Source: DRGV01 sp018903055 [NCBI: bacterium]
GTDB lineage: Bacteria > UBP18 > UBA7526
Assembly: GCA_018903055.1 (NCBI GenBank)
Contig: JAHIPW010000077.1
Location: 1 to 7,134 of the forward strand
Reading direction: 5' to 3'
Length of the DNA stretch: 7,134 nucleotides
Both the position numbers and the translations under genes were made by a program. Below the pieces are notes generated by a model that was not told the DNA's origin, did no database searches, and saw only the letters and a program-made list of their open reading frames with translations. Within the stretch, counting starts at the first letter, position 1, and every line of letters begins with the position of its first letter. Of the stretch, positions 684-2,947 are shown piece after piece.

Positions 684-1469
684 ATGGAGATCATCGTCTG
701 TATCAAGCAGGTACCGGATACTGCGGATATCAGGATTGATCCCAAGACCAATACCCTGATAAGGGAAGGGGTCCCCTCCATCATTAATCCCTTTGATACC
801 TATGCCATTGAGGAAGGGGTGAGGTTAAGGGAGAAGTATGAAGGGAAGGTGACCGTAATATCAATGGGGCCTCCCCAGGTAGAGGATACCTTAAGAGAAG
901 CCATATCCTTAGGGCTGGATGAAGGGGTATTATTATCCGATAAGGCCTTCGCTGGTGCAGATACCTTAGCCACATCTTATACCTTAGCAGAGGGGATTAA
1001 AAAAATCGGGAAGTTTGACCTCATCATCTGCGGGAAGCAGGCCATGGATGGCGATACCGCCCAGGTTGGACCGGGGATCGCAGAGAAATTAAATATCCCT
1101 CATGTCACCTATGTGAGAAAGATTGAAGAGGTAAAAGAGGGCTATATTCAGGTTGAGAGACTGATGGAGGAAGGGTATGAGGTAATCAAGATGCCCCTTC
1201 CGGCTTTAATCACTGTGGTGAAGGAGATAAATGAGCCGAGGATGCCCTCTTTGAAAGGTAAGTTAAAGGCAAAGAGTGCTCAAATAATTACCTGGGGCGC
1301 CAAAGACTTAGAAGCCGAAGAGAAGAGGATTGGATTAGAGGGTTCGCCCACTCAGGTAATCAAGATATTTACTCCCCAGCCGAGAGGTGGGGGAGAAATG
1401 ATAGAAGGAACGCCTTCTGAGCAAGCAGCGAAGTTAGTAGAAAAACTAAGAGAAACGAAGATCATTTAA
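684..1469 (+). CDS. etfB: Electron transfer flavoprotein subunit beta
   Basis: EtfB is the small subunit of the cytoplasmic ETF heterodimer. It pairs with EtfA and holds AMP, or a second FAD in electron-bifurcating forms. The protein is 261 residues, normal for the family. It opens with MEIIVCIKQVPDT, the usual first strand and loop, followed by NPFDTYAIEEG (35-45), the nucleotide-binding GKQAMDGDTAQVGP (117-130), the family signature region VERLMEEGYEV...PLPALIT (157-177) and EPRMPSLKGKLKAK (184-197). The C-terminal tail that wraps onto EtfA includes SPTQVIKIFTP (221-231). The start at 684 gives the expected N-terminus; GAGAG at 673-677 is only a modest ribosome site. etfA follows after 177 bases, probably in one transcript. 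The ferredoxin-fused partner makes a bifurcating or ferredoxin-linked role likely, but this is inference. No dehydrogenase partner gene is in the window. Confidence 0.96.
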   Translation: MEIIVCIKQVPDTADIRIDPKTNTLIREGVPSIINPFDTYAIEEGVRLREKYEGKVTVISMGPPQVEDTLREAISLGLDEGVLLSDKAFAGADTLATSYTLAEGIKKIGKFDLIICGKQAMDGDTAQVGPGIAEKLNIPHVTYVRKIEEVKEGYIQVERLMEEGYEVIKMPLPALITVVKEINEPRMPSLKGKLKAKSAQIITWGAKDLEAEEKRIGLEGSPTQVIKIFTPQPRGGGEMIEGTPSEQAAKLVEKLRETKII

Positions 1470-1496
1470 TACTAACGGGGATAAGCAAGGAGAATA

Positions 1497-1595
1497 ATGG
1501 TTACTACGTCCCACAAATGTGGGACTGTTACTATCAGTTACTACACTTCGTTGTTACTAACGGTTGCTTTTGTACTAATCACCGGTAACTATTAG
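1497..1595 (+). CDS. Possible 32-codon ORF in the etfB-etfA spacer
   Basis: ATG at 1497 is preceded by AAGGAG (1487-1492) with a 4-base gap, the best Shine-Dalgarno match in this region. It opens 32 codons beginning MVTTSHKCGTVTISYY, with a hydrophobic C-terminal half (LLLTVAFVLI), and stops at TAG 1593-1595. It is encoded almost entirely by the repeat array, so its composition (many Thr, Tyr, Val) follows from the repeats. It could be a leader peptide, or the old etfA ribosome site separated from its gene by repeat growth, or chance. I know no homologue. Confidence 0.15.
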   Translation: MVTTSHKCGTVTISYYTSLLLTVAFVLITGNY

Positions 1596-1634
1596 TAACC
1601 GTTTAGTAACCCTTAGTAACTATTAGTAACCGTT
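1500..1634. repeat. Heptamer array: four GTTACTA then four inverted TAGTAAC
   Basis: GTTACTA occurs at 1500-1506, 1527-1533, 1537-1543 and 1553-1559. Its reverse complement TAGTAAC occurs at 1593-1599, 1604-1610, 1614-1620 and 1624-1630. Within the second half a 19-bp perfect direct repeat, GTAACTATTAGTAACCGTT, is at 1585-1603 and 1616-1634 (31-bp period). CTAACGGTT (1557-1565) pairs perfectly with AACCGTTAG (1628-1636). The transcript can fold into a long hairpin in several registers. The array fills nearly all of the etfB-etfA spacer. Confidence 0.85.
1508..1525. repeat. Perfect 7-bp hairpin inside the array
   Basis: GTCCCAC (1508-1514) and GTGGGAC (1519-1525) are perfect inverse complements around the loop AAAT. 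The hairpin sits between the first two GTTACTA copies, as if placed between two units. It is not followed by a U-tract. Confidence 0.7.
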
Positions 1635-1635
1635 A

Positions 1636-1640
1636 GAGGT
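1636..1640 (+). promoter_or_regulatory. Ribosome binding site of etfA
   Basis: GAGGT lies six bases before the ATG at 1647 and abuts the last repeat unit. It supports the start that includes the Fe-S domain. Confidence 0.55.
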
Positions 1641-1646
1641 AATAGT

Positions 1647-2849
1647 ATGATTGAGATTAAGATAACTGATAAGTGTACTGGCTGTGAAAAGTGTATCCCC
1701 AGCTGCCCCTATGGTGCTATAAAGGTCACTGATAAGAAAGCAGTCATTTTAGAAACCTGCACCCTCTGCGGAGCATGCGTTGGCTCTTGCCCCTTTAAGG
1801 CCATCGAACTCACCAAGAAGGAAGTGAAGATGGCTAGCCTTGAGGAATATAAGGGGGTGTGGGTCTTTGCTGAACAGAGGAAGGGAAAGGTACAGAGCGT
1901 GGTCTATGAGCTCCTGGGTAAGGGAAGAGAGCTTGCTAATCAATTAAAGGTGGAACTGGCTGCCGTTCTACTGGGAGAGAAGATGGATAAAGAAGCCCAG
2001 GAACTCATCGGATATGGAGCGGATAAGGTCTATCTTGCAAACCATAATAAACTGAAGGACTTCCGGGATGACTCCTATGCCGATGTCCTGGTCGATCTAA
2101 TCAGTGAATATAAGCCAGAAATTATATTAGCCGGGGCAACCTCCATCGGAAGATCACTCATTCCTAAGGTAGCTACTCGTTTAGAGACCGGACTTACCGC
2201 AGACTGCACTGGATTGGAGATCGATGAGGAGAAGAAGATTCTCTTACAGACCCGGCCCGCCTTTGGGGGAAATATCATGGCCACCATCATCTGTCCTAAT
2301 CACCGGCCCCAGATGGCTACCGTGAGACATAAGGTGATGAAAGAGGCCTCCTTTAATAAAGAGAGAAAGGGAGAGATTATCAGAATAGAGGTCGATCCCA
2401 AGAGAATCCCCCTGAGGACAGAGGTAATCAAGATGGTGGAGAGTATGGAGGAGACCGTTCTCCTGGAAGAGGCGGACATCATCGTCTCTGGGGGAAGGGG
2501 ATTGAGGGCGCCAGAGAACTTCAAACTCATTGAAGAACTGGCCAAGACCCTGGGGGGAGCAGTAGGCGCATCAAGGGCCACAGTAGATGCCGACTGGATC
2601 CCCTATGCCCATCAGGTGGGCCAGACAGGGAAGACGGTCTGCCCCAAGATATACATTGCCTGCGGGATATCGGGCCAGATACAACACCTGGCCGGGATGC
2701 AGTCCTCAGATATCATCGTAGCCATCAATAAGGACCCCGAGGCACCAATATTCAATGTCGCTACCTATGGCATTGTGGGAGATTTGTTTGAGGTAGTTCC
2801 AATACTGACAAAGAAATTCAAAGAAGTCCTTGGTAAGAACACGGATTAA
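1647..2849 (+). CDS. etfA: Electron transfer flavoprotein subunit alpha with N-terminal 2x[4Fe-4S] ferredoxin domain
   Basis: EtfA binds FAD and forms the ETF heterodimer with EtfB. The product is 400 residues, about 60 longer than plain EtfA because of a ferredoxin-like domain at 1-57. Two complete cluster motifs are visible: C10, C13, C16, C20 and C38, C41, C44, C48, the second followed by Pro. The EtfA N-terminal domain starts near 65 (EEYKGVWVFAEQ). The FAD domain follows, with SGGRGL (281-286), GASRATVDADW (307-317), QVGQTGKT (323-330), the family signature IYIACGISGQIQH (335-347) and AINKDPEAPIF (359-369). The same fusion is known in CarE of the Acetobacterium woodii caffeyl-CoA reductase-Etf complex, which bifurcates electrons to ferredoxin. 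A similar role here is inferred, since the dehydrogenase partner is absent from the window. A second ATG at 1830 could give a form without the Fe-S domain. The last codons (NTD-stop) lie in a short tandem repeat. Confidence 0.96.
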   Translation: MIEIKITDKCTGCEKCIPSCPYGAIKVTDKKAVILETCTLCGACVGSCPFKAIELTKKEVKMASLEEYKGVWVFAEQRKGKVQSVVYELLGKGRELANQLKVELAAVLLGEKMDKEAQELIGYGADKVYLANHNKLKDFRDDSYADVLVDLISEYKPEIILAGATSIGRSLIPKVATRLETGLTADCTGLEIDEEKKILLQTRPAFGGNIMATIICPNHRPQMATVRHKVMKEASFNKERKGEIIRIEVDPKRIPLRTEVIKMVESMEETVLLEEADIIVSGGRGLRAPENFKLIEELAKTLGGAVGASRATVDADWIPYAHQVGQTGKTVCPKIYIACGISGQIQHLAGMQSSDIIVAINKDPEAPIFNVATYGIVGDLFEVVPILTKKFKEVLGKNTD

Positions 2850-2858
2850 CACGGATTC
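2839..2858. repeat. Tandem AACACGGATT x2 across the etfA stop codon
   Basis: Two exact 10-bp copies lie at 2839-2848 and 2849-2858. The first encodes the last three etfA residues (Asn-Thr-Asp), and the stop TAA (2847-2849) spans the junction. The words CGGATT and GGATTAAC recur in the array just downstream. Confidence 0.8.
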
Positions 2859-2870
2859 AGAATAGAAGTT

Positions 2871-2947
2871 GAGCTCGTTGGCCCGCTGGCCCGTTCGCCC
2901 GTTAACGGGAATAACGGGTCTAACCGGATTAACGGAATTAACGCACC
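2871..2947. repeat. Two-phase short tandem array between etfA and smc
   Basis: First part: 8-bp units GAGCTCGT (degenerate), TGGCCCGC, TGGCCCGT, TCGCCCGT at 2871-2902. Second part: five 9-bp units at 2903-2947, TAACGGGAA, TAACGGGTC, TAACCGGAT, TAACGGAAT and TAACGCACC. The junction is a perfect 12-bp palindrome, CCCGTTAACGGG (2898-2909), so the second run is the inverted word of the first. The 9-bp units keep a frame open, producing a spurious Thr-Gly-Leu repeat upstream of smc. Confidence 0.85.

Follow-up and report, generated by a model that had tools for sequence, protein, structure and literature searches.

Foldback arrays of short words in the intergenic spacers of a bacterial lineage: candidate mosaic mobile elements

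To our knowledge, the palindromic repeats of bacteria are single sequence families, and the REPs are tied to one transposase each. ERIC, RUP, RPE and NEMIS have one sequence per family and defined ends, and the STRR heptamer arrays of cyanobacteria are direct; Vioque is said to have described, in 1997, cyanobacterial short repeats within RNase P RNA. REPINs and BIMEs are moved by RAYT transposases. They are described as inverted doublets scattered through intergenic DNA that fold into hairpins, and are regarded as miniature mobile DNA (PMC3116915, PMC3733652). Stem-loop families and MITE-like repeats such as ERIC, RUP, RPE and NEMIS are characterized as small, foldable, present in many copies and often intergenic (PMC2267715, PMC2229807). 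For marine Beggiatoaceae, one report places arrays of the heptamer TAACTGA in intergenic DNA, mostly just upstream of start codons, with 169 sets of direct repeats and one inverted (PMC4679880). Template switching has been reported to create and maintain hairpins, and at quasipalindromes it predicts matched arms and compensatory changes at the DNA level (PMC8794818). For the foldback-array design considered here, searches of an open-access collection of papers listed no description.

The window, that is, the whole stretch of 7,134 nucleotides analysed, comes from the genome of DRGV01 sp018903055 and contains, in this order, the end of a HEAT-repeat gene (a name assigned by reading), etfB, etfA, smc, and a thioredoxin-like gene (Table 1). 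At positions 276-515 the HEAT-repeat ORF is interrupted: the repeat spacing changes from 93 to 92 bases and the frame shifts before 336, a break that is either a real frameshift or an assembly error. The two spacers around etfA had been noted as each consisting of a run of one word followed by a run of its reverse complement, and this description holds, with 4+4 exact units of GTTACTA and 2+2 of CCCGTT; the range of 1500-2947 assigned to them, however, also takes in the whole of etfA, which lies outside the arrays. In a 6-mer flip test, where all copies of a word precede all reverse-complement copies and the score is the smaller copy number, the score is 4 for 1470-1646 (spacer 1) and 2 for 2850-2958 (spacer 2), and the observed score was reached by 0 of 3000 dinucleotide shuffles for either spacer. 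Spacer 2 is the weaker of the two arrays, its exact words being flanked on both sides by extra degenerate units. Spacer 1 folds at -54.6 kcal/mol (z -3.49; 1 of 200 shuffles equally low) and spacer 2 at -35.2 kcal/mol (z -1.92; 10 of 200). A scan of the window against Rfam gave no match at the gathering score, and spacer 1 matched nothing in the phage and plasmid records searched with it.

Table 1. Positions of the genes, spacers and repeat units in the window
Feature	Position	Strand	Remarks
etfB	684-1469		
etfA with ferredoxin domain	1647-2849		
smc	from 2959		
Spacer 1	1485..1646		Lies between etfB and etfA; foldback element of the GTTACTA family, with outer arms; blastn copies, clusters read
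Forward unit GTTACTA 1	1500..1506	+	
Side hairpin CGTCCCACAAATGTGGGACT between units	1507..1526		Hairpin in predicted fold; 26 distinct hairpins of this kind covary
Forward unit GTTACTA 2	1527..1533	+	
Forward unit GTTACTA 3	1537..1543	+	
Mini-hairpin CACTTCGTT	1544..1552		Other strand, AACGAAGTG, is the A-T version of the usual AGCGAAGCG
Forward unit GTTACTA 4	1553..1559	+	
Central part of spacer 1, GTTGC...GGTAAC	1563..1589		
Reverse unit TAGTAAC 1	1593..1599	-	
Reverse unit TAGTAAC 2	1604..1610	-	
Reverse unit TAGTAAC 3	1614..1620	-	
Reverse unit TAGTAAC 4	1624..1630	-	
AACACGGATT x2	2838..2857	+	Overlaps end of etfA; CACGGAT-type word; CACGGA foldbacks exist elsewhere
Spacer 2	2876..2943		CCCGTT/AACGGG foldback between etfA and smc
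Spacer 2 forward words CCCGTT, at 2890 and 2898	2890..2903	+	
Spacer 2 reverse words AACGGG, at 2904 and 2913	2904..2918	-	Axis 2903/2904

Searching the genome of the window (a 1.09-Mb draft) with spacer 1 by blastn gave 29 pieces, the window included and several of them at one place. Pairs of GTTACTA at most 8 bases apart number 75 in this genome, and the control, the same pattern read backwards, gave 0. Clusters were read at places with at least two exact heptamers, single heptamers being set aside; of the 27, spacer 1 among them, 24 have units in both orientations, without exception with the forward units all ahead of the reverse ones, and the other three (L045, L050 and L052) have a single orientation. 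Variable hairpins sit between the units of the array clusters. The usual anatomy, seen in an alignment of 24 copies chosen from this and related genomes, begins with forward units separated by 3, 3, 4 and 3 letters and continues through an inner loop, for example GTTACCAGTGATTAGTATAAAAGCAAC, to the reverse units. Of these there are typically four, and one hairpin separates units 1 and 2 and another units 3 and 4; parts are absent in several copies. On the other strand of the central part, all 24 copies of the alignment agree in GTTAC and G.AAC, and the loop length varies. Among the copies of this genome, the share of the major letter is 0.51, 0.66 and 0.52 between units and 1.00 and 0.91 at unit letters 5 and 7, and unit letter 6, at 0.68, varies as much as the between-unit letters. 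By reading, three copies (L038:454, L038:2853 and L042:326) have in common the left flank TGATNCNGTAATATGA, with stops in three frames, and the right flank ATATTATA, after which comes GAGG, resembling a Shine-Dalgarno sequence; it looks as though a gene end and a gene start came with the element. A one-orientation array of four GTTAATA units and one GTTACTT lies at L040:957-1003 and is absent at the matching place in the sister-genus genome G003.

With another GTTACTA copy as query, matches were found in 5 of 98 genomes, all of them family members, and the GTTACTA flip pattern, looked for in 386 genomes, occurs in 4, each of them one of the 6 members of the family; G002 and G005 gave no GTTACTA foldback by this exact pattern. 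Six of 193 Omnitrophota genomes have GTTACTA foldbacks, with 1-4 matches each, four of the six being already known holders. Among 15 genomes chosen for a match, 11 have such foldbacks (2 of the family, 8 Omnitrophota, and Tritonobacter, the last with 3 matches). A scan of GTDB contigs for triple GTTACTA returned at least 106 stretches, and among the 80 matches listed many of those outside Omnitrophota are one-orientation arrays. The Bacteroidetes MAG JABDAV01 contains a dispersed family of one-orientation GTTACTATAAG arrays (loci L095, L098, L119, L157 and L102), with a common 3' flank in four of the five loci. The Omnitrophota foldbacks L110, L112, L130 and L137 have, by reading, a loosely conserved insert between reverse units, about AAACT.TC.TTTTACTTG.AAT. 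At L035:3449-3627, L040:3103-3260 and L215:11737-11920 a longer module, alike at the three places (..CTCAAGAACCTTGTT...CAGAAAT.., also by reading), sits inside the loops of GTTACTA and GTTAATA elements.

A harvest of the sequences lying between exact TAGTAAC units gave 58 inserts: 23 of 9 bases, 29 of 18-30 bases (26 distinct), and 6 longer ones. The nine-base inserts comprise AGCGAAGCG (14), AACGAAGTG (3) and four rarer forms; GCGAAGC is a hyperstable DNA mini-hairpin. The side hairpins covary: when the 26 distinct hairpins are compared at their six outer pairs, 145 of 156 cells are Watson-Crick, 7 are G-T, 3 A-C and 1 other, and redealing the 3' letters in 500 trials gave a mean of 111.5 Watson-Crick cells and a maximum of 120, relatedness being ignored in this comparison. 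Pair 5 is C-G in 20 of the distinct hairpins and G-C in 6. GTAG, which like CGTC is a tetranucleotide expected at one end of a REP palindrome, follows each harvested side hairpin, a regularity that is forced, since the harvest demanded G and then TAGTAAC. Hairpins of the AGTCCCG...CGGGACG kind are present in both GTTACTA and GTTTAC elements, the latter having side hairpins like those of the former (for instance, AGTCCCG...CGGGACGG). Moreover, longer modules nest in small ones, as in L039, with a 43-base insert against 9 bases in its G003 counterpart L078; these two loci were matched by the left flank only, because the contig of L039 ends on the right.

How common the design is was assessed by counting as flipped any spacer with a 6-mer present at least twice whose copies all come ahead of two or more copies of the reverse complement. 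Spacers were delimited with a single simple ORF caller, and those above 1500 bases (one, in Scalindua) were excluded. In a sample of 91 spacers from 36 contigs of this genome, picked by number and none known to hold close GTTACTA pairs, 26 are flipped, against 3.40 expected from 20 shuffles each or 2.97 from 30, and among the stretches fetched for GTTACTA the count is 30 of 81 (2.90 expected). The first batch from G003, in which 9 of 20 stretches lie on known matches, gave 56 of 166 (4.70 or 4.63 expected), and the second, less tied to known copies and partly from the same contigs, 32 of 137 (4.75 expected). The 184 control spacers, drawn from 8 genomes and from 50 kb of E. coli K-12, gave 9 flipped, with 6.93 expected. 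At least three copies per side are found in 7 of 91 spacers of this genome and 18 of 166 in G003, with fewer than 0.3 expected, and in 1 of 184 controls, with 0.37 expected. Commoner than foldbacks are spacers with some 6-mer three times in one orientation: 65 of 91 in this genome (16 expected), 109 of 166 in G003 (31 expected), and 45 of 184 in the controls (37.5 expected). The comparison with shuffled spacers, set beforehand as the one that could refute the preliminary description, came out in its favour. By the spacer flip test, the dense design is not clearly seen in other phyla with GTTACTA copies: the Omnitrophota gave 3 of 17 (G390; 1.73 expected), 5 of 37 (G391, including one contig already known to hold a match; 0.90), 1 of 22 (G389; 1.33) and 2 of 21 (G392; 1.93), G386 yielding no spacer, Tritonobacter gave 3 of 24 (1.23), and Scalindua 6 of 32 (4.60). 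Self-folding arrays specific to this lineage, which had also been suggested, are only partly what is seen: the density of the design is special to the lineage, whereas GTTACTA foldbacks as such extend to Omnitrophota and Tritonobacter.

The suggestion of one design common to both spacers is supported, and the design recurs with about ten words: GTTACTA, GTTTAC with GTTAAC, GTTAATA, GGTTAG, CACGGAT, ATCAG, GAAAAC, ATCAAA, CCCGTT and TCCGTC. All 6 family genomes have GTTTAC foldbacks, against 0 of 139 others, and some GTTAATA elements have inner-loop letters in common with GTTACTA. In the DNA examined, exact foldbacks are located in spacers in 16 of 17 cases in this genome (the remaining one falls within an ORF, where a contig ends) and in 11 of 11 in G003. 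Single-linkage clustering lumped together 122 of the 144 foldback spacers and was therefore set aside as a source of copy numbers for the words. A search with spacer 2 gave, besides itself, no match in its own genome, two in G005, one in G003, and one in G001, which spans 20 bases and is limited to the AACACGGATT part; the three larger matches (L200, L201 and L203), in two relatives, are by reading foldbacks of similar words, and smc was not found in their 3-kb loci. Spacer 2 is thus no high-copy family, and the two spacers therefore represent different families of one design. In addition, an RNase P RNA at L239:1479-1901 (Rfam RF00010, 207.5 bits) carries a 63-base CACGGAT/ATCTGTG foldback at a helix tip, where it can leave the helix unspoiled, and the first hairpin of the same RNA is written in TCCGTC/GACGGA words. 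We take the helix with the insert to be P12 and the first hairpin to be P3.

Places were compared between this genome and G003, where the spacer flanks have 71-93% DNA identity. Both flanks were present in the G003 DNA compared for 45 of 172 spacers: a foldback is found in both genomes at 8, in this genome only at 9, in G003 only at 8, and in neither at 20, and the words of the eight common sites differ in four, are the same in three, and are ambiguous in one. From stretches fetched for GTTACTA come 26 of these 45; the other 19 divide into 1, 6, 6 and 6 in the same order. In the neighbouring spacers L031:10255 and L031:11140 words are exchanged, a GAAAAC-type foldback here corresponding to GTTACTA in G003 and the reverse next door. 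Clean empty counterparts are found for L038:454 and L038:2853, and at L040:3024 the G003 counterpart holds other short repeats. Some copies (L035, L046) have stayed at orthologous places in different genera, as would also be expected if they were useful. The etfB-etfA spacer itself has a TCCGTC/GACGGA foldback in G004 (score 2, reached by 0 of 3000 shuffles) and in G003 (score 3), is 2 bases long in G005, and in G002 has 49 bases, with GTTTAC ends mixed with GTC/GAC words; in G001 no etfA of this kind was found. The site comparison for spacer 2 is weaker. Next to etfA, smc was not seen in G003 or G004; in G005 the bases before smc read ATCAGG/ATCGGG and then CCTGAT, and this spacer fails the 6-mer flip test (score 1, reached by 1708 of 2000 shuffles) and folds at -35.7 kcal/mol against a shuffle mean of -22.1, with 0 of 500 shuffles as low. 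Inspection by eye of the compared places, where the ends are diffuse, showed neither a recognisable fixed end nor a target-site duplication, which in MITEs accompanies terminal inverted repeats. Since places filled in one genome are empty or otherwise filled in a relative, and alike copies are dispersed, we conclude that DNA has moved.

If the element acted as a structured RNA, with the fold of the transcript setting mRNA stability or translation of the next gene, selection on the mRNA fold should favour G-U. Arms were aligned on the gene strand, with equal penalties for G-T and A-C, in 116 of 131 co-directional foldback spacers (at most 500 bases); the pairs comprise 275 G-T, 275 A-C, 3678 Watson-Crick and 510 others, and spacers without foldbacks gave 355 G-T and 325 A-C. 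With G-T equal to A-C on the gene strand, the pairing therefore looks to be kept at the DNA level. The low fold energy of spacer 1, the array at a helix tip in RNase P RNA and the position of 54 of 56 foldback spacers of this genome between co-directional genes would suit an RNA regulator; but 103 of the 116 other spacers are co-directional too (in G003, 77 of 88 foldback and 184 of 215 other spacers), so that an operon-specific placement is not clear, relatives have other words or nothing at the same gene pair, and the window is without an Rfam family match. We consider such a regulator very unlikely. Little credence can likewise be given to a nucleoid or regulatory protein that binds GTTACTA in both orientations, the units following one another at 10 or 11 bases, roughly a turn of B-DNA. 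Conservation is mostly higher at unit letters than between units, and GTTACTA runs exist in Omnitrophota, though found with patterns demanding this pitch, but other words of the same design have, by reading, other pitches, and the covarying side hairpins and word swaps at one place would be left unexplained.

The elements might also have arisen by generation in place alone, with slippage multiplying a word, template switching at the nascent hairpin writing its inverted copy, and drift and re-homogenisation following, no mobile element being involved. Different words at one place, hairpins that covary without wobble bias, one-orientation repeats in many spacers and the absence of Y1 transposase and reverse transcriptase in the six family drafts all agree with it; however, GTTACTA copies at 27 places have loop letters, inter-unit letters and long stretches in common, and two counterparts are cleanly empty. 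Slippage, moreover, should copy whole 10-base units, yet the between-unit letters vary more than unit letters 5 and 7, an argument weakened by unit letter 6, which varies like the between-unit letters. We regard this origin as unlikely. Template switching followed by drift, put forward in the preliminary description, is accordingly not supported as the sole generator, being countered by the letters common to the copies and by the places filled in one genome and empty or differently filled in a relative; alone it does not explain the dispersed copies, and it may keep the arms matched.

We find it on the whole probable, if far from certain, that both spacers belong to a class of short, mosaic, non-autonomous mobile foldback elements, spread throughout the lineage, that insert into intergenic spacers. 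Dispersed copies, turnover between genera, hairpin kinds common across words, covariation and no wobble bias make up the evidence; the different words, or none, at corresponding places in related genomes suggest small mobile DNA elements that are defined less by a single sequence than by their shape. The word run and the inverted run after it would allow either DNA strand to fold into one long hairpin, with small hairpin modules plugged between the units; the form moved would be the folded single strand, and the mover a putative host or transposon enzyme. Insertion into spacers and later loss would leave relatives with other words or none at one place, and the arms may be kept complementary by DNA-level processes, either template switching at hairpins or a fold needed in transposition. 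Word change in place is conceivable at single places, such as the 49-base mixed etfB-etfA spacer of G002. Searches for a mover in the six family genomes, drafts that are 53-93% complete, gave no Y1 transposase (PF01797; the control query matched 5 of 14 genomes) and no reverse transcriptase (RVT_1; control, 3 of 14). The only match of the three mobiliser searches was to the IS110 N-domain, in 1 of the 6 genomes: an N-terminal fragment (L351, G002:C46:3850-4140, 38.8 bits) on the same contig as the G002 etfA. The absence of a mover is soft, because it concerns drafts and three families only.

A bolder and rather doubtful extension of the mobile-element reading is that the heritable unit is the architecture, rather than a sequence, in which case a machinery of this lineage would copy and paste folded single strands and extend them by snap-back synthesis, with new words constantly arising and competing for the same intergenic places; this would account for some ten word families of one design in one genome. 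About a quarter of the surveyed longer spacers in this small genome carry foldbacks, built from many words in a common layout; from genus to genus the layout comes back at a given place with another word. This makes it testable how new families of repeats arise and whether a mover may recognise a fold instead of a sequence. Such arrays in metagenomes should not be read as genes or regulators.

Compared with the described systems, the elements resemble REPINs and BIMEs in their inverted conserved units, hairpin, intergenic location and many copies, 24 of the 27 clusters of this genome being forward-then-reverse. However, an arm here consists of several short words, whereas a REPIN arm is one palindrome of 20-40 bases, and here many unrelated words occur per genome, with RAYT/Y1 transposase in 0 of 6 family genomes. 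A retron, DGR or group II intron product would call for a reverse transcriptase, found in 0 of 6 family drafts. In contrast to ERIC, RUP, RPE and NEMIS, the elements showed no recognisable fixed ends or target duplication, and hairpin kinds are common to families with different words. Quasipalindrome template switching acts in place, and 150-base copies would not be dispersed by that alone. As with the cyanobacterial STRR heptamers, an array lies within RNase P RNA here too, but the direct tandem heptamers, STRR and TAACTGA, have a single orientation, and here both orientations are present in 24 of the 27 clusters. Finally, the TAACTGA arrays of Beggiatoaceae are alike in being heptamer arrays in intergenic DNA, whereas the arrays described here flip and carry side hairpins.
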